A DNA stretch of 24,459 bases, from positions 1 to 24,459 of the IMG/VR virus record IMGVR_UViG_3300009610_000089. One strand, written 5' to 3'. Source of the DNA: a virus. Below, in pieces: positions 14,271 to 24,459 of the stretch; position 1 is the stretch's first letter, and every line of letters begins with the position of its first letter. The notes beneath the pieces were generated by a model. The model ran no database searches, was not told the origin of the DNA, and saw only the letters and a program-made list of their open reading frames with translations. The position numbers were made by a program, and so were the translations under genes.

Positions 14271-15269
14271 CTAACAGGCTCGAACAAGTTTACGCACGAC
14301 AATCGTCGGCTGGACGTTGGGATGTGGCACACCGCCAGCGGTGCTGCTCCCTGTAATGCTGCCACTGCCACCGCCGGAAAAGCTGTTAGTGCTATTAGAA
14401 ACATTCGTGGTGTCATACGGAACGCCGCCACCACCAACAGGGCCACCACCAGCAAAAGCGCCAACAGCATAGGGAACATACAAACCTGGGTTGCCCGCTG
14501 GATAGACCGTAACGGAGACGGAAGCACTTCCCGTCACCGGGACACTCGGTATATGCGAGGCTGAGAGTAAATATGCCCCCGCGCCACCAACCGAACCAAC
14601 CGCCGACGCAACGACTCCAGCCAACAATCCCAACGTATCCTCACCAACCTCCGTCCGTCCGCGTTTATCGCGCAACGTCGTCGTACCGAGCGCCAGTGCC
14701 AGCTCAGCGAACGTCGTCCCACTGAACACCGTCCCGTCCAACACGAGGTGTCCAGCTGGCGTCCCCGTCCCATCAAAGTTAATCGTGGAGCCAATCATCG
14801 GCCCATTCTTGATACAGAACCACGCACTCCCGTTCCAGAGGAACTTCGCTGGACTCGCTGTGACGCCCACTCGCACCGTCGACGTCGGGCCGAACTGTCC
14901 GAAGATATTCCCGCTCGGCGGCGAAACCGTGATGGCATTGGCATCCGTTGAATACTTGAGTATTTCGCAGTGCCATCCAAGATCCGTCACGCCCAGCGCC
15001 GGTAATGTGACCGTCGCATTACCCGCCGTCGTGTCGTAGAGGATACTTTGACCATTCTGCGCCATCGTCAGCGTGGTAGACCCACCACCAGTCCCAACTC
15101 CCGTCGACGGCAAGTAGAACGGCCCCGTCGCATTCGGGAACGTATTTTGCAACACGCCCTTAATCAGCCGTATATGATCGTCACCTTGTGACTTCGGCTC
15201 ACCCGCCGTCGGCCACTCCTTCGTGAGTCCGGCGATGAACGTGGACGGCGTTAGTGCTTCGAGGCCCAT
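14271..15269 (-). CDS. Tail fibre / collar-domain protein (332 aa)
   Basis: The N-terminus has EWPTAGEPKSQGDDHIRLIKG followed by NTFPNATGP, a conserved phage and prophage fibre start probably involved in attachment to the tail. Residues 65-155 are beta-rich. Residues 158-205 match the phage tail collar domain (GS-x-INFDGTGTPAGHLVLDG ... LALALGTTTLRDKRGR), and the end carries the collar-associated PHPNVQPTIVVRKLVRA. Between them lies a Gly/Ser/Val-rich region (about 215-310), likely a flexible or knob-like tip. It starts directly at the adaptor's stop (TAATG), with GGGGAGG upstream, so the two are translated together. Collar-domain proteins in short-tailed phages are fibres or needle-like adhesins. 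The exact receptor is unknown. Confidence 0.85.
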   Translation of the reverse strand: MGLEALTPSTFIAGLTKEWPTAGEPKSQGDDHIRLIKGVLQNTFPNATGPFYLPSTGVGTGGGSTTLTMAQNGQSILYDTTAGNATVTLPALGVTDLGWHCEILKYSTDANAITVSPPSGNIFGQFGPTSTVRVGVTASPAKFLWNGSAWFCIKNGPMIGSTINFDGTGTPAGHLVLDGTVFSGTTFAELALALGTTTLRDKRGRTEVGEDTLGLLAGVVASAVGSVGGAGAYLLSASHIPSVPVTGSASVSVTVYPAGNPGLYVPYAVGAFAGGGPVGGGGVPYDTTNVSNSTNSFSGGGSGSITGSSTAGGVPHPNVQPTIVVRKLVRAC

Positions 15270-15883
15270 TAGTTGTTCCTCCCCATGATGAGGGGCCTTC
15301 CGGCCAGCTCGTCCTCGACCACATCACCGATGAACGCCCGACCACCGATTTTGGCCATGAGGCCAAACTTCTCCGCCGCGCCCTTATCGCGCACGTCACC
15401 AGCGACCGCGAGTCCAGCGAGGCCAATCATGTAGTTGGGAGCGTGCTTCAACCACGCATTCTCAATATCGGAGTCTAACGGCAGCGCGGCCTTGTAGTAC
15501 GTCAGGTACACAATCCCCGCGACCTTCGGCACTGGATTGAATTCAATCCGCGTCTTATCAAGGAGTACGTAATGCCGCATCTCGGCTGTCGTAATCGGCT
15601 CGTCGGAGCGCCTACGACTCAGCTCGACATACGTGTCATACGTATCGTAGAAGTATGGTGGGTAATCATCATGCAGTCGGATAAACCCCGGCGGCAGAAC
15701 GTACGCTCCCGTACCAGCCACCACCGGAATTTCCACATCGAACACCAGTAGCCAGTTTGGCAGCGTCTGGCCCAGCTCGAGGTCCCGCTGTACCTGCTTG
15801 AGGGCGGAAATAATGGCCGCATCTTGGGTCTGGCGGAACCCTAGTCCGCGCTTGATAATCGTAATGGCTTCGGAACGTAGCAT
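15269..15883 (-). CDS. Putative head-tail adaptor / tail tube terminator-like protein (204 aa)
   Basis: The protein has an N-terminal helical part (EAITIIKRGLGF, AAIISALKQVQRDLELG), a beta section with GAYVLPPGFIRLHDDYPP near residue 65 and a helical C-terminus with NAWLKHAPNYMIGLAGLAVAG. The LPPGFIRL segment and the later N-x-WL-x-x-P-x-x-hydrophobic helix fit podovirus portal-tail adaptors (P22 gp4 or T7 gp11 type). The position after capsid genes and before fibres is right for such a protein. It begins the tail operon just after a terminator-like hairpin, with AAGGAA upstream. The exact homologue class (gp4 or gp11) cannot be settled by eye. Confidence 0.68.
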   Translation of the reverse strand: MLRSEAITIIKRGLGFRQTQDAAIISALKQVQRDLELGQTLPNWLLVFDVEIPVVAGTGAYVLPPGFIRLHDDYPPYFYDTYDTYVELSRRRSDEPITTAEMRHYVLLDKTRIEFNPVPKVAGIVYLTYYKAALPLDSDIENAWLKHAPNYMIGLAGLAVAGDVRDKGAAEKFGLMAKIGGRAFIGDVVEDELAGRPLIMGRNN

Positions 15884-15900: not shown

Positions 15901-15936
15901 AATAAATGGGCGGTTAACAATCGTATTAACCGCCCA
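15901..15936 (-). terminator. Rho-independent terminator between capsid and tail modules
   Basis: Bases 15907-15917 and 15926-15936 form a perfect 11-bp stem (TGGGCGGTTAA arm) with an 8-base loop. On the minus strand the stem is followed by TTTATTTCC. It lies in the 60-base gap between the 117-aa capsid-associated gene and the adaptor. The adaptor ATG follows within about 20 bases, leaving no room for a promoter, so it probably attenuates rather than ends transcription. Confidence 0.75.
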
Positions 15937-16323: not shown

Positions 16324-17562
16324 CTAGGTCTTGCTGATGTTGCCGAGATAGGCCATCGTGAGGCCGCCATACCCCACCTCAAGCCCTGCCTCAGTCTGGA
16401 TATAGCCGCGACGAACGTCCTCATCTTCAGCCTGAACGTCGTCCTTCGTCTTCGTGTCCCGTCCCTCCAGCGGGGCCCACTTGATCGCATCGAAGTCCAA
16501 CACGAACATCGACTTGGAGTAGACGCCATGACGGCTCATCAGCGGGTGCGTCTTAATCAACAGCCGACCCATCGGCAGGATCAACTCCTGGAAGTGAATG
16601 CCGTAGATCTTCACGCGCTCTGTCGTGTTGATCTGCACATTCGTCGCGGCATTGAAGATCTTACCCAGCTCCATCGCCGCCGCATTGCCGACGAACGCCA
16701 CGCGCGTATCACCCGCCCCGGTGTTGAAGTCGAACACCGGCGCAATGTCAGTCGTCAGCGTATCAATCGTCACGGCAGACGAGTAGATCTTCGTATTGCT
16801 CGCAGGAATGAACGTCCTGAGTCCGCCCATCGTGCGCTTCGGCTTGCCGTTCTCGCCAGTCGTTTCAGACCTTCGTCCGAACAGAATGGCCATCTCGATG
16901 TCGCGAGAGTGGTCATACGACTTACGCTTCTTGTCGTTCGACCACGGATCGCCCGTCCGAAACTTCGTGTGATCCACCGTTCCGGTGAGTTCATACGTAT
17001 TCTTGAAGATCTGCGTATAGTTGTAGAACTTGATCGGATTCCGACTGACGGCTCGCGGCGCGCCCGTGCCTTCAGCGTAGGAGCTACCGATCAGCGTCAT
17101 CCACGAACTCGCAGCTACCGAACCCGCCGTGGAGCCTGCCGCGCCCCGCTTCGCCGTAAACTGCGTGTCGGACAGCACGTTGTCGATCTCGATAATCTCT
17201 GGCGTCCAAGCCGCAGGTTCCGGGACGACCTCAATCATCAGCAAATCGCCCGGCTTGAGATGCGTCGCCGTGCCGTAATTCGCGCCGAGCGTGGTGGCCG
17301 TCGGATCAGCCGATCCAATCGTGAACAACGTGTCGCCCGCCGCGTATGTGGCTGACGTGGTCTGAAGGCGCACCAACGCATTACCCTCATTCCACCACGC
17401 AAATTCCGGATCTTTCACGACCCGCTTTCCCGCTTTCGCCGAGAGGGCGAAGATCGGCGCCTCGCCATTCGGATTGAACCACAGAATGTTCTCTCTGAAG
17501 TCCTTTGGCCGTTCGTCTGCACCGAAGTCTCCAGTTCCCCGGAGCCCTGCAATACCACTCAT
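16324..17562 (-). CDS. Major capsid protein, SU10-like (DUF5309-type, HK97-like fold; 412 aa)
   Basis: Residues about 175-250 carry the family's characteristic sequence: NPIKFYNYTQIFKNTYELTGT, then a Lys-rich helix, SRDIEMAILFGRRSET and KPKRTMGGLRTFI. The pattern of a DIE-x-A-hydrophobic-x-G-R-R segment followed by a T/R-x-GGL element is typical of SU10-type major capsid proteins. The C-terminal third (ERVKIYGIHFQELILP, then RLLIKTHPLM) has the expected P-domain and strand pattern. It follows the scaffold gene by 20 bases with GGAG upstream of the ATG, and precedes the decoration-like protein. Length (412 aa) suits the family. It would form the icosahedral head shell around the scaffold product. 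Confidence 0.88.
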   Translation of the reverse strand: MSGIAGLRGTGDFGADERPKDFRENILWFNPNGEAPIFALSAKAGKRVVKDPEFAWWNEGNALVRLQTTSATYAAGDTLFTIGSADPTATTLGANYGTATHLKPGDLLMIEVVPEPAAWTPEIIEIDNVLSDTQFTAKRGAAGSTAGSVAASSWMTLIGSSYAEGTGAPRAVSRNPIKFYNYTQIFKNTYELTGTVDHTKFRTGDPWSNDKKRKSYDHSRDIEMAILFGRRSETTGENGKPKRTMGGLRTFIPASNTKIYSSAVTIDTLTTDIAPVFDFNTGAGDTRVAFVGNAAAMELGKIFNAATNVQINTTERVKIYGIHFQELILPMGRLLIKTHPLMSRHGVYSKSMFVLDFDAIKWAPLEGRDTKTKDDVQAEDEDVRRGYIQTEAGLEVGYGGLTMAYLGNISKT

Positions 17563-18592: not shown

Positions 18593-18895
18593 TTATTCCT
18601 CATCGCTATGGGCGGGGCGCAACTCGAGCGCTTCGCGCATTTTCATATGTGGGAGCGTAGCGGCGAGACTCAGCCCGCTCAATACGCCCTTAGCGAACTC
18701 GACCTTAGTCGATTCCAAGACGTTCTCCAGTGGCTTCATAACCGCCGCGTGATGGTTCTGCGCCACCGCGTCGATCAACGCGATGAAGCGCGGCCAACCC
18801 TTATGCGCGATTAACCCGGCGAACAACTCAGCATCCTCACGGACCTGCCGTCGTTCCTCCCGCTGCTTCAGTTCAATATCATTCACGACGTCCAT
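18593..18895 (-). CDS. Small helical protein between portal and scaffold (100 aa)
   Basis: The protein is almost wholly predicted helix: a Glu/Arg-rich N-terminus (LKQREERRQVREDAELF), then HKGWPRFIALIDAV, a middle KPLENVLESTKVEFAKG, and a C-terminal LSGLSLAATLPHM segment. A similarly placed protein with a GW-x-x-L/F element and E-x-x-KG-x-hydrophobic-G helix occurs between portal and scaffold genes in podoviruses, from memory. I cannot assign a function. It is separated from the portal stop by nine bases, with the TGA overlapping a GAGG ribosome site, and from the scaffold start by about five bases, so all three are co-translated. A portal-associated or assembly role is possible. Confidence 0.65.
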   Translation of the reverse strand: MDVVNDIELKQREERRQVREDAELFAGLIAHKGWPRFIALIDAVAQNHHAAVMKPLENVLESTKVEFAKGVLSGLSLAATLPHMKMREALELRPAHSDEE

Positions 18896-18904
18896 GTTGG
18901 TGCC

Positions 18905-20857
18905 TCAATATGCTGGTGGTGGAGTGGCTAGTGCGTTATTGCCGCTGACCGTGGCGCTATCCGCGCCCGGCGGCGGAATGCCCGGACGCCCCGGCATCGG
19001 AATGACGTTACCTGCGCCTACGGCATTCGTCATGTCCATCCCCGGCGGCATGACTTGTACTTTGAACTGGTTAATATTCTTCAACCCTGCAAGGGTTCCG
19101 ACCCACGAGAAGATCTTCACCCAATCGAACCCCATCGCGACCTGCGGCGGCATCATTCGCAGGTTACTCATCATATCCTTCCAGAGGTTCGCCTGCGCCG
19201 CACGGTCTATCGGCAGCGTCCCATCCACCGGCACGAAATTGAAGAACCCCAGAATATCATCCGGCGTCACGTTCAGGAAGTTTGGCCCGGCGGCTAGCGC
19301 CAGATCGCCAACGATTTTAAGTTTCAAGTTCGAGTCGTAGAACTGCTGTGAGTTCTGGACTAACTTCTGCGAATGGGGCGAGAAACCCATCGTCGACATG
19401 TATTCTGTGTTTGTTTTCAACCTGTTAGTACCGAACCCCGCCGCCGTCCTCACTTCCGTAGCGGTCTTGCGCCCGCCGGTGTTCAGGACGCCCATGATCT
19501 GGTCATTGATACCCAACGTACGCTCACCAAGTGTGAACATCTGTTGAAGGTCTTGCATGTTCGTACGCGTAACGTCAGTGACGGGAATCTGCGTAAAGAT
19601 GGAACGGATGTCAGTGCCGAAGGCTTCGGGGCGCAAGCGCCAGATGAAGCCGGGTTCGCCCGCCTCAACGTCCTTCAACACGAGTTTCGACGGGTCCACA
19701 ATGAATTGATTATTGAGCGCGGCACGGACATTATAAAAGTGACTATTAACAAGCCAGTCCATCGTATTCTGTAACGGAGCCACAATTTCCGGTATGCCGC
19801 GAGACTCCGCCGAGTACCCCTCCACCTCACTCTCAAGGATCGAGAACGGGAACTTCGAATGCATATGGCCAAGCGGGCACGCGCCAATAATGAGGCCAAA
19901 GTCCTCTGTGATCGTAAAACACCACTTCTGAGGGAACGACTCTGGTCCGACGCCCCAATCCCGGGGGACCAGATCGACATAAAACTCGAACGCGAAGACG
20001 GCAGCCGGGTGCTTCTTCTTCTCATTGTCGCCACCCTCGGAGTCCGCATCCATGTTCAACTGCGCCGCGGCCCAATCTGGCCTCTTCAGTTGCGCTGAAT
20101 TATCATCCGAGTGCCGATTAGTCGCATGTTTTTTGAGGTTCTCCAGGTTCGTATAGTATCCCGAATCGGCTCTCCTCATCACGTCGTTCCACAACATCCT
20201 CTTCAGGACGAAACAAAACTCCCCGCTCTGGAAGTTCTTCATCGACACTCTCGGATCTCTCCAGAAGTCGAACGGGTTCACGTTGTACGCTTTGTTCCCC
20301 GTGTAGCCCGTGAGTTCCACCGTGGCCTGATAGAGGCCCATCTGGCCCGTGACTGGATCGGGCATCTCCGCAAGCTGGCCATATGCAATCTTCTCGACAT
20401 CCCAGTATTCCCCCAGAATCCCACAGCCATATTTCCCGGCGTCGTACATCCACACATAATACGGGCCGAGTAGACGGCCCACTTCGACCTGATAGTCGAT
20501 CAGCGCCTCCATCGACTGAACCTGCATCTCGCTCTCGCCGTGACGGCCCGAGTACTGATGTACTGGCGTCCTCCCAAAGAACACAGACGTCCAATACGTG
20601 TGAGCACTCATCAATAAGGCGTAAGAGTAAGGCAGCATTATCGTCGTGTACGTCTGCGTCCCCTTGAGGTCCCTCCGGTTGCGTCTCGTCGCATCGACGT
20701 CGCTCTCCGGAACATACGCCAGCGTCCTTTCCTCCGCCTTTCGCCATATCCCCTCCTGCGTCGTCCGGTCCTTTTTGGCGAGCATCACGCGTGACTGTAT
20801 CATCGCACAGAGCTTTTTATGGAGCGGCGTATCTTCTTTGAGTCGGAGCGTTGGCAT
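18905..20857 (-). CDS. Portal protein (head-to-tail connector, 650 aa)
   Basis: The protein is long (650 aa) and sits directly after the large terminase with a TGATG overlap and GAGGAG ribosome site, the usual place for a portal. Residues 70-100 (TTIMLPYSYALLMSAHTYWTS) resemble the N-terminal wing strand of P22/T7-type portals. Residues 440-485 include LGINDQIMG and GRKTATEVRTAAGFGTNRL, the G-x-x-TATE-x-R signature found in the stem/clip region of portals. The last 45 residues are Pro- and Gly-rich (PMPGRPGIPPPGAD) and probably disordered. It would form the dodecameric ring through which DNA is packed. A long C-terminal barrel-like extension as in P22 is not evident. Confidence 0.85.
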   Translation of the reverse strand: MPTLRLKEDTPLHKKLCAMIQSRVMLAKKDRTTQEGIWRKAEERTLAYVPESDVDATRRNRRDLKGTQTYTTIMLPYSYALLMSAHTYWTSVFFGRTPVHQYSGRHGESEMQVQSMEALIDYQVEVGRLLGPYYVWMYDAGKYGCGILGEYWDVEKIAYGQLAEMPDPVTGQMGLYQATVELTGYTGNKAYNVNPFDFWRDPRVSMKNFQSGEFCFVLKRMLWNDVMRRADSGYYTNLENLKKHATNRHSDDNSAQLKRPDWAAAQLNMDADSEGGDNEKKKHPAAVFAFEFYVDLVPRDWGVGPESFPQKWCFTITEDFGLIIGACPLGHMHSKFPFSILESEVEGYSAESRGIPEIVAPLQNTMDWLVNSHFYNVRAALNNQFIVDPSKLVLKDVEAGEPGFIWRLRPEAFGTDIRSIFTQIPVTDVTRTNMQDLQQMFTLGERTLGINDQIMGVLNTGGRKTATEVRTAAGFGTNRLKTNTEYMSTMGFSPHSQKLVQNSQQFYDSNLKLKIVGDLALAAGPNFLNVTPDDILGFFNFVPVDGTLPIDRAAQANLWKDMMSNLRMMPPQVAMGFDWVKIFSWVGTLAGLKNINQFKVQVMPPGMDMTNAVGAGNVIPMPGRPGIPPPGADSATVSGNNALATPPPAY

Positions 20858-22359
20858 CAGGGCGCTCCTCGAACTAGTTTCAACGGCTCCACATCCGCCC
20901 CTTCGGAGCTACCGTCGCCCGCCGCCCACGGATTGACGAGCACACTCAACGCAATACTCGCCGCGTCGAGTTCATCGTCATGATCGGAGCTGGGATACGT
21001 ATCGAACTGCGCGATGAACGGCGTGTCCTCTGGTCGTACCCACATATGACCGTGGCTCGCTTGCGGCGCAATAACGGAACGAATCCGCGCATACTTGTTC
21101 TTCCCGACGAACGGGACGACAGTGTAATACTGCCGACGCCGGCTCATTTCCTTTTCGAGCAGCCACTTCAACGTCCGTTGGTACATGACGGACTCTACGA
21201 CGATACTTACGACACGATATTTCTGCGCCATCTCGAACGCATTAGTTATGGTCCAATCCGGGGACTCGCCACGCACGCTTCGCCGCTCCTGAAGGTAGTA
21301 ATTATCGCCGCGGCGTCCCCACACGTGGAGTACCTCGTAGTCGTCTCCCTTGAAGCCCTTCTCCATCTGCGCGTCACTCGGCGGCGGCGTCGGATCAATC
21401 GCCAGCACGTTCGTGGCATTCGGGACTGGCCCCGGCTCCGTAATGTACTTCAGCCACTCACTACGGAACTCACACAGCTCCGGCGAGACGAGACGGAGTT
21501 CCATCTCACGCGCAAACACCGAGAGCTTATTAATTGCTACGGCGGCGCGCTTCTCATCCCGGAGTGTGTCACTAGGATAACGTTCGGGCCATACACTGAT
21601 TTGCTTGTCCACCGGAAGGTCCGCTGTCGCGGGTGTCCAGCAACTGACCTCGATAGTCTTCCACGTTGGATCACCACGCGCCACCGAACTAACGTCCTCA
21701 CGATGTTGGGGCGTGACGAGCATGGACATCTTCGCATTCGGGTCATCGACGACCGGGGCCAGTGATCGTTTGAGGGCACCATGCACCAAGTCACTTATTT
21801 TCTCCCGCTGTTCCTGTGTGGCACAGTTCTCATCCGTGAGGATGTCGTCTAAAACAATGTAGTCTGGTCGGTAGTCGTCGAAGTTGATTCCTCGGATGTT
21901 ACCAGTGATGCCCACGAAAAGGCACCAGATGTTCGTTTTGAGCGTCTCGTGCCAGACTTCGAACTCAATATCCGTCCACTTACGTCCAGGGGATAGAGCA
22001 AAGGTTCCTGCCCAAAGTTTGTTACGTTCGACGTTATTCCTAAGCCAAGCGCCCGACCGAGCTGCCGCGCCCTCGCTCGCGCCAACGTAGAGGATGGTCT
22101 TTGACACTCCATAGGCAATCCGTTTGGAAGTGTTAACGCGAGCGATAGTTGTCTTCGCCCCGCCGCGGAAGATGCGCTGATTGGAGTATCGGATCGCGGG
22201 ATCATTGAGGTCATCCCAGATCTCCTTTTGGAAGGCCGGTGACTTCTGTCGAAACGTGTTCGGAAAAAACGTGCGGGCGTAGATGTCATTATCAATGGCC
22301 CCGAGCGCCACGGCGTCAGCGACGGACAGCTTGACTTTCGGCGTCCCTAGATCTTCCAT
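20857..22359 (-). CDS. terL: Large terminase subunit (ATPase/nuclease, 500 aa)
   Basis: Numbering is from the chosen start at 22359. Residues 65-71 (RGGAKTT) are the phage-type Walker A, residues 168-172 (IVLDD) the Walker B with catalytic acid, and a C-motif-like LVTPQ lies at about 214-218. The C-terminal nuclease has LAIDPTPPPSD (Asp322), IVVESVMYQRTL (Glu389) and HDDELDAASIAL (Asp465), giving the RNase H-like acidic set. Together these define a DNA-packaging motor that cuts the concatemer and pumps it through the portal. Start 22359 has GGAGGT at 22366-22371 and a 13-base overlap with the nuclease gene. An earlier in-frame start at 22452 would overlap by 106 bases. Confidence 0.93.
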   Translation of the reverse strand: MEDLGTPKVKLSVADAVALGAIDNDIYARTFFPNTFRQKSPAFQKEIWDDLNDPAIRYSNQRIFRGGAKTTIARVNTSKRIAYGVSKTILYVGASEGAAARSGAWLRNNVERNKLWAGTFALSPGRKWTDIEFEVWHETLKTNIWCLFVGITGNIRGINFDDYRPDYIVLDDILTDENCATQEQREKISDLVHGALKRSLAPVVDDPNAKMSMLVTPQHREDVSSVARGDPTWKTIEVSCWTPATADLPVDKQISVWPERYPSDTLRDEKRAAVAINKLSVFAREMELRLVSPELCEFRSEWLKYITEPGPVPNATNVLAIDPTPPPSDAQMEKGFKGDDYEVLHVWGRRGDNYYLQERRSVRGESPDWTITNAFEMAQKYRVVSIVVESVMYQRTLKWLLEKEMSRRRQYYTVVPFVGKNKYARIRSVIAPQASHGHMWVRPEDTPFIAQFDTYPSSDHDDELDAASIALSVLVNPWAAGDGSSEGADVEPLKLVRGAP

Positions 22360-22865
22360 TGAAGGACCTCCAGCCCGTGACCGGGCCGATGGAGGGACGT
22401 GATACGACGGTACTCGCCCGGCAGCTGGATACTCGGATCGTAGCTGCGGCAAATCTCCACCGTCCGAATGCGCTGACTAGGAAGTAACTTTGTAACTAGA
22501 AGCCGGTATCGTACCATTAGCTGCTCCCACACGCGCTCTGTGTGGGAGAGTTTGACCTCAACGATCAGCGTTTCGGGACCAAGGTGGAGGAGGCCGTCGA
22601 GGACTGCCGCTTTTGGTTTCGAGCGATATTTGTAGCGTATTGTGGGAGACCGAACGAAGCAACCACCGTAGATGGCTGTCAATACGTCCACCACGCGTTG
22701 CTCGTACTGGAGGCCTGCCTTCTGCGAGCCCTTGTAACGGTTTCTGGTCTTCCATGATACGGGGGCGCTCCAATAGACGTCGGTGAATGATGGTCGTTGC
22801 ACAGCGGGGCGCGCCCCGGCCAAAGGCCGCTCTGGCAGAAACACGTCGGCGTTAAATACGTTCAT
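22347..22865 (-). CDS. PD-(D/E)XK nuclease-like protein (172 aa)
   Basis: The core is in residues 48-120: a helix with QKAGLQYEQRVVDVL (Glu55 candidate), then AVLDGLLHLGPETLIVEVK, in which Asp90, Glu103 and Lys105 form the D-x(n)-E-x-K set, followed by an RVWEQLMVRY helix. This is the standard PD-(D/E)XK layout, and similar proteins occur just upstream of large terminases in some phages. Residues 1-45 are basic and probably DNA-contacting or disordered. The gene begins in an ATGA overlap with the preceding gene and overlaps terL by 13 bases. It could trim or process DNA during packaging, or recombination intermediates. I rank packaging higher from position. Confidence 0.78.
   Translation of the reverse strand: MNVFNADVFLPERPLAGARPAVQRPSFTDVYWSAPVSWKTRNRYKGSQKAGLQYEQRVVDVLTAIYGGCFVRSPTIRYKYRSKPKAAVLDGLLHLGPETLIVEVKLSHTERVWEQLMVRYRLLVTKLLPSQRIRTVEICRSYDPSIQLPGEYRRITSLHRPGHGLEVLQWKI
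22366..22371 (-). promoter_or_regulatory. Strong ribosome binding site for the large terminase
   Basis: GGAGGT lies six bases upstream of the ATG at 22359, and the site is inside the preceding gene. It decides the start of the large terminase against the longer in-frame ORF beginning at 22452. Confidence 0.75.
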
Positions 22866-23113
22866 GACGTCAGTGGTGGCTCACTCGGTTTGCGACGGAG
22901 GAATATCACGTCGTGGTCCCCGAAGTTCTTCATGGTAGCTCCCTCCTCGCCTGGAGGGCGGGTGCGCATAAAGTCCTCGGGTTTCATTCCATTCAGTGGT
23001 AGGATCTCGCCCCATTGTTCTCCCCACTCTTTGAACACGTCAGGCTCTAGCTCCGGATCGACATGGCCGAAGTATTGACCCGTGAGGGCGCGGCCAACGT
23101 CTGCGTCAGCCAT
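22862..23113 (-). CDS. Hypothetical protein in the terminase cluster (83 aa)
   Basis: I do not recognise a family. The chain is acidic in its first half (VDPELEPDVFKEWGEQWGEI) and ends in KPSEPPLTS, with a predicted helix around EPDVFKEWGEQW and strand DVIFLRRK. The start at 23113 overlaps the previous stop in ATGGCTGA (8 bases), with a GGGGA/GAAGG region immediately upstream. The longer ORF from 23290 would overlap the small terminase by over 180 bases and begins in an Arg-rich stretch typical of shadow coding. It sits between putative small terminase and nuclease, so a packaging accessory role is conceivable. Confidence 0.6.
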   Translation of the reverse strand: MADADVGRALTGQYFGHVDPELEPDVFKEWGEQWGEILPLNGMKPEDFMRTRPPGEEGATMKNFGDHDVIFLRRKPSEPPLTS

Positions 23114-23822
23114 CCTTCGTCCCCGGCTCCGCCGGAGTAATGGTCTGCGCCCCCGCCCCAAGAGCGCGAGCTTCGCTCGAAGATCCTGTCGCGCCGTCGC
23201 CAAGAGGCGACAATTCTGTCGCGCCCCCGGCAAAGCCGGGTCGTTCCAGGTCTCGAACAGACGCCGTGTCTGAGGTAGGCGTGACGTCAACTAGCTGAGG
23301 GGCCTGTGAACGACGTAACGCTTCACGGGCCTGTTCGAGATCCGTTAGGGATACAGCGACGTGGACCGACTGGGGAGCCTGACCCACGTTCACCGTGACG
23401 GCGCCACCGGGAGGAGATGCGCCGTAACCGAGATTCTTCAGGGAGCTTTCGCTGACCCGTGCCAGCATTTCCAGCGGAATGGTGTCACGCTTTTTGTCCA
23501 GCGTCTCAAGCATGTGGTCGAGGGACTTCGAGGCCACGGTGAATAGCTTGTCCCGCACGACGCTGTCGAGCTTCTCGGCGTGGTGCGCGCGGCGCTGACG
23601 GAAATACGCCTTGAAGGCGTCGGTGGCGATGACCGTCGAAATCGTGGCGGGGTTCCGTCCGAAGTGCGCCGCCATTTCATTCTGGGTGGCGCTGGGGTTG
23701 GCGATCATGAAGTCGGCGAGGGATTCGTACCACCAGCGCATTTTGCGCGTGGTTTTGCGGAACTCGTGGATACTCCCGCCGGAAGCGGCGATAGCGGCCT
23801 CTTTGGTTTGCGGGGCGCTCAT
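23106..23822 (-). CDS. Putative small terminase subunit / DNA-binding protein (238 aa)
   Basis: A helix-turn-helix is visible at about residues 34-62 (LADFMIANPSATQNEMAAHF then RNPATISTVI). A helical, charged middle (about 70-135: AYFRQRRAHHAEKLDSVV, KSLDHMLETLDK, LEMLARVSESSLKNLGYG) would suit oligomerisation. The final 100 residues are low-complexity with Gly/Ala/Ser and Glu. Length, HTH and position two small genes ahead of the nuclease and large terminase fit a small terminase that recognises the packaging site, which may lie in the upstream non-coding region. A transcription regulator is an alternative. The ribosome site is weak (AGGA about 11 bases upstream), and the start is the first Met in frame after the non-coding region. 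Confidence 0.65.
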   Translation of the reverse strand: MSAPQTKEAAIAASGGSIHEFRKTTRKMRWWYESLADFMIANPSATQNEMAAHFGRNPATISTVIATDAFKAYFRQRRAHHAEKLDSVVRDKLFTVASKSLDHMLETLDKKRDTIPLEMLARVSESSLKNLGYGASPPGGAVTVNVGQAPQSVHVAVSLTDLEQAREALRRSQAPQLVDVTPTSDTASVRDLERPGFAGGATELSPLGDGATGSSSEARALGAGAQTITPAEPGTKDG

Positions 23823-23892
23823 GGTCGGAGTTGTCCTGTGTGGTAGGAGTATGCCGCCTTAGGCGGCGGCGGGGCAAGGGGAATGCGATAAC

Positions 23893-23928
23893 GGGGCAGT
23901 TTACTCATGGAACCATTTTGACGCGCCG
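23893..23928 (-). repeat. Direct repeat, copy 1 (candidate regulatory/packaging site)
   Basis: GGGGCAGTTTACT (23893-23905) is followed, after 9 bases, by ATTTTGACGCGCCG (23915-23928). The 13-mer is identical in copy 2, and the second block differs at two of 14 positions. The 9-base spacer (positions 23906-23914) together with flanking bases has an ATGG-AA-CCAT dyad. Confidence 0.7.
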
Positions 23929-23951
23929 CAAAATCACCGGACGTCATACTG

Positions 23952-23975
23952 CATCGTGGCCGGAAGGCCATGATG
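23952..23975. repeat. Inverted repeat between the two direct repeats
   Basis: CATCGTGGCC and GGCCATGATG are arms of 10 bases that match with a single G-T exception, separated by GGAA. In RNA of the plus strand this would be a hairpin with a GNRA loop. On the minus strand, the expected transcript, the loop is UUCC with one C-A mismatch. It ends exactly where copy 2 of the direct repeat starts. It may be an operator or RNA structure. Confidence 0.6.
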
Positions 23976-24008
23976 GGGCAGTTTACTTTCCGAAATTTTG
24001 GCGCGTCG
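23975..24008 (-). repeat. Direct repeat, copy 2 (candidate regulatory/packaging site)
   Basis: GGGGCAGTTTACT (23975-23987) is followed, after 7 bases, by ATTTTGGCGCGTCG (23995-24008). Copy 1 is 82 bp away. Here the spacer with flanks contains TTTC-C-GAAA, a dyad at the same place as the different dyad of copy 1. Confidence 0.7.
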
Positions 24009-24018
24009 GGAATGGTAT

Positions 24019-24046
24019 GAAAAAGAAGCGGCGGGCCCCCCGCCGT
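24019..24046 (-). terminator. Possible second terminator hairpin
   Basis: Bases 24029-24035 (CGGCGGG) pair with 24039-24045 (CCCGCCG), a 7-bp all-GC stem with a 3-base loop, followed on the minus strand by CTTCTTTTTC. The stem is strong but the T-tract is interrupted. It lies about 50 bases after the first terminator, so the two could form a tandem stop. Confidence 0.5.
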
Positions 24047-24096: not shown

Positions 24097-24127
24097 AATA
24101 AAAAAACGGTGGCCAACATGGCCACCG
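24097..24127 (-). terminator. Rho-independent terminator after the upstream gene
   Basis: Bases 24107-24114 (CGGTGGCC) pair with 24120-24127 (GGCCACCG), an 8-bp stem with loop AACAT, followed on the minus strand by TTTTTTATT. It lies 41 bases after the stop codon of the partial gene at 24168 and separates it from the packaging operon. Confidence 0.85.
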
Positions 24128-24167
24128 CAGTGTCTTGATAGGGATGGGGGACACCCCCATCAGGCTG

Positions 24168-24459
24168 CTAGGCCAGCGAATCGAGGGACTCGGCACCCGC
24201 GCTACCGCGCGCCTTTGCCCGCATGGCAAGGTAAATGGCCTTAACGGCCTTGTTACCGAATACCTTTGCGAGATATTCCTCGTCCTGCATTTTGGCAACG
24301 TAATCGTCCACGCTACCCTTTGCGCCAGTCCCCAGCGCCTCAATCAGCGCAGCGGCGAGTGTGGGCTTATCCGCACGGCTACCCGTGCCAGCCTCGCCTT
24401 CCTGCCGCTCGCGCCAAACATTATTGCCAATTTGCGCGAATACATCATGCAACGCAGCA
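24168..24459 (-). CDS. Partial hypothetical protein, C-terminal part (about 97 codons visible)
   Basis: The frame is open to the right edge of the window, so the start is outside. The only start-like codon (TTG at 24452) is not convincing, because coding continues upstream of it. The visible part has short helices: LAAALIEALGTG, VDDYVAKMQDEEYLAKVFGNKA and KAIYLAMRAKARGSAG, with an acidic hydrophilic end. I do not recognise it. Alternating Lys and Glu with LAMRAKAR suggests a small helical, possibly nucleic-acid-associated protein, but this is weak. It is closed by the terminator at 24097-24127, so it belongs to a separate transcription unit upstream of the packaging operon. Confidence 0.6.
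   Translation of the reverse strand, partial: AALHDVFAQIGNNVWRERQEGEAGTGSRADKPTLAAALIEALGTGAKGSVDDYVAKMQDEEYLAKVFGNKAVKAIYLAMRAKARGSAGAESLDSLA

Follow-up and report, generated by a model that had tools for sequence, protein, structure and literature searches.

In lambda cosB and SPP1 pac, repeated blocks bound by TerS lie upstream of terS. T7-type promoters consist of one rigid block, a repeated motif located upstream of late genes. In the cluster A mycobacteriophage L5, operators and stoperators are dispersed, phage-specific sites at promoters and in short intergenic gaps, and a block of elongation is proposed for the stoperators (PMC9283540). The L5 sites are asymmetric 13-mers, present in more than 20 copies per genome in temperate phages and bound by a monomeric helix-turn-helix (HTH) repressor. 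Ribbon-helix-helix (RHH) dimers contact the major groove through a sheet of two strands; in the case of AmrZ, two half sites are recognized, and the protein is a repressor or an activator according to the site (PMC3325190).

The DNA analyzed here (the window, 24,459 bases) derives from a tailed phage with an SU10-type capsid and portal, and most of its genes are on the minus strand. The terS region contains the following features (G002 is a close relative described below).

20857-22452, minus strand: terL, large terminase gene
23106-23822, minus strand: terS, small terminase candidate, assigned from its position ahead of terL and its conservation
23848-23877, minus strand: weak sigma70-like sequence TTGCCC-18-CATACT (8/12), downstream of copy B
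23893-23905, minus strand: predicted downstream half-operator, copy B, sense AGTAAACTGCCCC; perfect repeat, contains T[AT]AAC[CT]GCCC
23915-23928, minus strand: block 1 of copy B, sense CGGCGCGTCAAAAT; 14-mer partner
23975-23987, minus strand: predicted upstream half-operator, copy A, sense AGTAAACTGCCCC; perfect repeat, aligns with the G002 element
23995-24008, minus strand: block 1 of copy A, sense CGACGCGCCAAAAT; conserved in G002
24029-24045, minus strand: second terminator-like hairpin, adjoining copy A upstream
24106-24128, minus strand: strong intrinsic terminator of the upstream gene

The order on the minus strand is thus upstream gene (ending at 24168), terminator, second hairpin, copy A, copy B, terS (from 23822) and terL. 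The terS candidate had no match in Pfam or PHROG. Since the terminator at 24106-24128 precedes terS, this gene needs its own promoter downstream of it. With two terminators ahead, a late-gene start is expected within 24028-23823, the stretch that carries both copies. The preliminary description saw no sigma-70 promoter there. At a threshold of at least 9/12 this was correct for the terS leader (24028-23823); below it, weak matches are present, the best being TTGCCC-18-CATACT (8/12) and CCGACG-18-TAAACT in copy A (7/12). In copy A, TAAACT (23985-23980) could be a -10 hexamer, and CCGACG (24009-24004), 18 nt from it, could be a weak -35.

The 13-mer GGGGCAGTTTACT occurs exactly at 23893-23905 and 23975-23987, with a spacing of 82. 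It is the sole exact 13-mer repeated less than 150 nt apart in the whole window; such repeats numbered 0.12 on average, and 2 at most, in dinucleotide shuffles. The 14-mers at 23915-23928 and 23995-24008 are 80 apart and identical at 12 of 14 positions, and the gap between 13-mer and 14-mer is 9 in copy B and 7 in copy A. Over about 49 nt, copies A and B align with a score of 24, which was reached in 0 of 2000 shuffles. The perfect repeat 82 bp apart upstream of the small terminase and its near-identical partner at 7-9 bases, as first described, are therefore confirmed. In contrast, the different dyad assigned to each spacer was not substantiated, because the arms are merely 4 bp (ATGG-aa-CCAT and TTTC-c-GAAA) and such dyads are present in 6-9% of equal-sized random windows. 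By eye, a short hairpin lies 3' of each half-site (window 23848-23972), GGCC-TTCC-GGCC after A and GCCGCC-TAA-GGCGGC after B. The terS half-site of G002 is likewise followed by a 12-bp hairpin, also by eye.

Two longer records belong to the same phage group. G001 (IMGVR_UViG_3300011423_000016, 40,387 bp) is 99.7% identical to the window over 24 kb, and both copies are unchanged in it. The two records diverge just 5' of the pre-terS terminator (window 24150, G001 position 20), near the end of G001. G002 (IMGVR_UViG_3300046516_000729, 45,267 bp) has a TerL of 83% identity and possesses a single copy of the element, which comprises both blocks and occupies the corresponding position, between the terminators of G002 itself and terS. 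The G002 element aligned with copy A at a score of 25 (0 of 2000 shuffles) and with copy B at 16 (20 of 2000). The conservation between copy A and G002 spans CCGACG to TWAACT, with a spacer of 18 or 17 nt. The spacing of the blocks is 14 nt in copy A, 16 nt in copy B and 13 nt in G002.

Other features of these genomes were observed along the way. The family A DNA polymerase is split over two reading frames (G001 33403-36155 in L016; G002 13-2685 in L018). The G002 gene between the halves is presumably dUTPase-like, and a similar split is annotated in Vibrio phage MF497422. In G002, the region that separates early from late genes contains tandem CGTATGGGG-type repeats in two inverted copies of 56 bp (32549-32604 and 32826-32881), possibly a replication origin or control region. 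A ParB_N domain fused to an N6/N4 DNA methyltransferase (G001 36094-37470; L016:16094-17470) is kept in relatives, and the late operon of G001 ends with a 2,164-residue protein without Pfam match (25650-32144; L016:5650-12141).

The sense-strand 13-mer contains TAAACTGCCC, which is half of a 28-bp palindrome, GGGCRGTTAA-N8-TTAACYGCCC. The palindrome occurs once in the window, and further ones are found in G001 and G002.

15269-15883, minus strand: late gene p204 (204 aa), directly 3' of the putative full operator; used as the anchor 'p204' in relatives
15908-15935, no strand assigned: putative full palindromic operator GGGCGGTTAACAATCGTATTAACCGCCC, in the gap before gene 15269-15883; the equivalent G002 site is 23706-23733

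A genome-wide search for the consensus, which the preliminary description had proposed, returned many copies and not one cluster near terS. T[AT]AAC[CT]GCCC was matched 6 times in G001 (shuffle mean 0.26), 9 times in G002 (0.28) and 4 times in the window (0.13). Most of these matches are paired arms of palindromes, of which G001 has 2 and G002 has 4 at no more than one mismatch. The 13-mer is thus not limited to the terS leader: its core recurs as half of a dispersed palindrome, and at the sequence level the terS copies in the window are lone right arms. The window half-site agrees with the operator arm at 9 of 10 positions, a match that is weak when taken alone (41/500 shuffles). In both G001 and G002, a palindrome separates the C-terminal DNA polymerase gene from the DUF3987 gene. 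A third is located at G002 37538-37565 and in L023 (IMGVR_UViG_3300015371_000898), followed by a ribosome binding site. By eye, it is directly 3' of TTGACA-17-TAATCT or TTGACA-17-TATAAA in these two; in L023, it comes right after TTGACA-17-TATAAA and just ahead of the ribosome binding site of a candidate regulator gene. Furthermore, the 12-mer GTTAACTGCCCA is identical between the terS site of G002 and its palindrome 37538-37565. In G002, two secreted-looking proteins (37587-38869), which we take to carry a VPGP-type C-terminal sorting-like signal, are encoded between the operator and the candidate regulator; they are not so placed in L023.

The number of palindromes per genome ranges from two to about seven. 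In 257 Gb of bacterial and archaeal genomes, the palindrome gave 16 scattered matches, several of which could be ordinary hairpins, against an estimated chance expectation of about 4 for 18 fixed bases. A host regulon was therefore rejected. The repeat, which itself is confirmed, would be part of a dispersed, phage-specific operator system. As in L5, the same motif is found at several places of one genome, at promoters and in gaps. Unlike in L5, the main form here is a symmetric palindrome, and orientation with transcription is seen only at the terS half-sites. Integrase (PF00589) was detected in none of 10 genomes, unlike in temperate L5. By likeness to the L5 system, the sites may be counterparts of those at which a phage repressor binds and blocks initiation or elongation.

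A terL profile search provided 77 new, more distant loci. The exact motif gave no site family in these 77 loci, and the palindrome at up to three mismatches was present in 0 of 32 records. Pattern matches in L028, L030, L031 and L027 were judged by eye to be chance matches in or near unrelated genes. Vibrio phage VS-ABTNL-3 has two copies of TTAACCGCCC, one intragenic and one after the late operon, and no site family. With the exact searches empty, only de novo and position-based searches revealed positions that are kept while the sequence has diverged. In a de novo scan of 28 genomes for recurring palindromes, families were detected in G014 (TTGTAAAAT..., four places), G015 (CGGGCGGTG..., three places) and G025 and G024 (TGRTCRGTT..., 3 and 2 places). 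The same statistic was 0 or 1 in eight shuffles per genome (six genomes), and the value of 1 observed for G001 and G034 is not above this. The two named isolates contained no such family. The same palindrome was found at both the polC/DUF3987 and the pre-p204 junctions in 6 of 19 testable genomes (G001, G002, G009, G010, G012 and G015; 0/100 shuffles each), and no palindrome was common to this pair of junctions in the other 13. In G014, G025 and G034, the polymerase region and the stretch 3' of the capsid gene also carry sites, the junctions differing slightly. Palindromes of diverged sequence thus stand at corresponding places in the relatives, namely at the polymerase/DUF3987 junction, 3' of the capsid gene and at sigma70-type promoters.

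In the 9 genomes having both arms and a terS region, the arms known from other parts of each genome were used to score the 300 nt preceding terS; G012 was left out since its record is without terS. Lone or full sites were detected ahead of terS in 5 of the 9. Perfect arms were found in G002 (2/500 shuffles), G014 (3/500), G025 (0/500) and G034 (1/500), the figures for the last three being descriptive because these sites had been seen by eye before scoring. For G001, and hence the window, only the weak 9/10 match given above was obtained. In G009, G010, G015 and G019, no site was present within the 300 nt. In all five genomes with a terS site, the right arm is on the sense strand. The G034 leader carries the whole palindrome with one change, GGGTGGATTA-N7-TAATCCGCCC, and that of G025 two overlapping arms, AACTGATCAGTT. 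Since the half-sites of G014, G025 and G034 lie upstream of the presumed promoter and not on it, no single rule of action applies throughout.

In L023, the operator is immediately followed by a gene for an 81-residue protein, whose G002 homologue is 68% identical. Another L023 gene, of the HTH type (1071-1364), was dropped as the regulator because it is without homologue in G002. By tblastn, homologues of the candidate were found in 17 of 26 other genomes, G024 and G025 being near-duplicates. An AlphaFold2 model from two sequences was poor; the model from 18 sequences was better (mean pLDDT 84.5), with helices at 19-29 and 41-68 that are preceded by an extended N-terminal segment and, in the monomer, no strand assigned ahead of the helices. 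A PDB profile search gave weak RHH matches (EndoAI, E 0.09; CopG, E 0.15). Foldseek with the model returned nothing relevant, RHH chains being absent among the matches listed, and Pfam and PHROGs gave nothing useful for all 18 family members. Like Arc, CopG and AmrZ, the candidate is small and, in the model, has an extended segment and then two helices; unlike them, it has about 11 residues between the helices and no Pfam, PHROG or Foldseek match. In L023, G010, G015 and G034 a putative operator is visible at the candidate gene's own promoter, and in G002 upstream of its operon; in G012 none was found at its promoter, and in G014 the site is 3' of the gene. Pairwise scoring of the candidate-gene site gave 0/100 for G010, 6/100 and 13/100 for G015 and a non-significant result for G034. 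These observations suggest that this small, RHH-like protein, encoded beside the operator in several relatives, may be the regulator. Half-site reading and dual action as in AmrZ would suit the lone half-sites at terS. On this clade, the open-access literature yielded nothing concerning dispersed operators with RHH proteins in phages.

Overlap of sites with promoters is clearest in G034. There, the site is built into the sigma70 promoter before the candidate regulator gene, TTGACAccGGGCGGGTAATGTGCCATAATCCGCCCC, and a similar one is at 18,644; in these two promoters, the full site lies across the spacer and the -10. At about 17,293, TTGACA-17-TATAATCCGCCCC carries the right arm alone, on the -10. 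The G015 site likewise spans the -35/-10. Since the G034 site is built into -35/-10 promoters, it acts as DNA and not as RNA. Of these sites, that at 17,293 is most like copy A, in which TAAACT would be the arm-overlapped -10.

The three candidates of the preliminary description were a phage RNA polymerase promoter, a repressor/activator binding pair and the packaging recognition site. The binding pair is best supported, because the core of the repeat recurs as one half of the palindrome that stands at several regulatory junctions of the same phages. The phage RNA polymerase promoter was dropped: unlike T7-type promoters, the block spacing varies (13, 14 and 16 nt) and the dispersed form is symmetric, and no PF00940 polymerase gene was found in 10 relatives or 2 named isolates, the window record being incomplete. 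T7, fetched as positive control because the bacterial controls of the first search were without that family, was detected. A packaging site, that is, TerS-binding repeats beside the genome end as in pac or a lambda-like cosB, would explain direct repeats placed directly upstream of terS. It also agrees with the contig ends: G001 and the window end within 0.7 kb upstream of terS, and among the 33 contigs of 30 kb or longer that carry this terL, 12 have an end no more than 4 kb upstream of the terL match and none has one in the 4 kb downstream of it (counted by hand from the table of the terL profile search). However, the overlap in five circular records is exactly 127 nt, a length that we take for an assembler signature rather than a terminal repeat, and this weakens contig ends as physical termini. 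G002 has one copy, and its circular record closes inside the polymerase gene. Moreover, the relatives have other sequences before terS, arms of their own operators. Unlike in lambda cosB or SPP1 pac, the core is found at promoters and within operons as well, and a half-site common to dispersed palindromes argues against a signal of the terS end only. Packaging is thus an unlikely function of the repeat.

Quite unlikely, too, is a plain late promoter, at which host RNA polymerase and some further factor would use -35/-10-like blocks and the likeness to the palindrome would be coincidental. The two terminators ahead and the conservation of CCGACG to TWAACT between copy A and G002, with a spacer of 18 or 17 nt, fit such a promoter. 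The sigma70 score of just 7/12, the differing spacing in copy B and the exact sharing of GTTAACTGCCCA between terS site and palindrome in G002 do not. It is very improbable that the copies arose by chance or by a recent functionless tandem duplication: although there are only two of them and the window does not match the operator arm perfectly, neither A against B nor A against G002 was equalled in 2000 shuffles. Action as RNA, through hairpins in mRNA leaders, can be given hardly any weight either. Several palindromes are just ahead of a ribosome binding site, and 10-bp hairpins are expected from them; however, the G034 and G015 sites span the -35/-10 and would be mostly untranscribed, the terS half-sites are without such a hairpin, and the polC sites of G001 and G002 each contain an A-C mismatch in the sense RNA.

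It is probable, judging from sequence comparison, that each 13-mer represents a lone half-site of an operator recognized by a phage-encoded DNA-binding regulator and that the pair controls the terS late unit. The full operator GGGCRGTTAA-N8-TTAACYGCCC would sit at early/middle sigma70-type promoters, at the polymerase/DUF3987 junction and in the capsid-gene region. Before terS, half-sites would replace it, two in the window phage and one in G002. By binding these half-sites, the regulator would set the timing of terS and structural gene transcription. Copy A (CCGACG-18-TAAACT) may itself be the late promoter, with the half-site over its -10. At terS, the half-sites could act by repressing at the -10, by activating from upstream or by blocking elongation; repression at the promoter is the most likely, and the effect would mainly be repression. 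Block 1 (GACGCG) falls outside the half-operator explanation.

In this reading, an isolated repeat becomes a node of a regulatory network, legible in nine or more phage genomes for which metagenomes are the sole source, and a repeat before terS is not necessarily a packaging signal. The analysis also predicts which small gene would be the master regulator, and its sites. Tentatively, this uncultivated SU10-capsid-type clade, in which neither integrase nor RNA polymerase genes were detected, may time its whole lytic programme with one small phage-encoded regulator, using operators at conserved positions, half-sites at terS and an operator code specific to each lineage. The control points would be the regulator's own gene and early promoters, the polymerase/DUF3987 junction and the capsid region. 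The clade would then offer a natural series of operators and regulators that vary jointly, with the positions unchanged.
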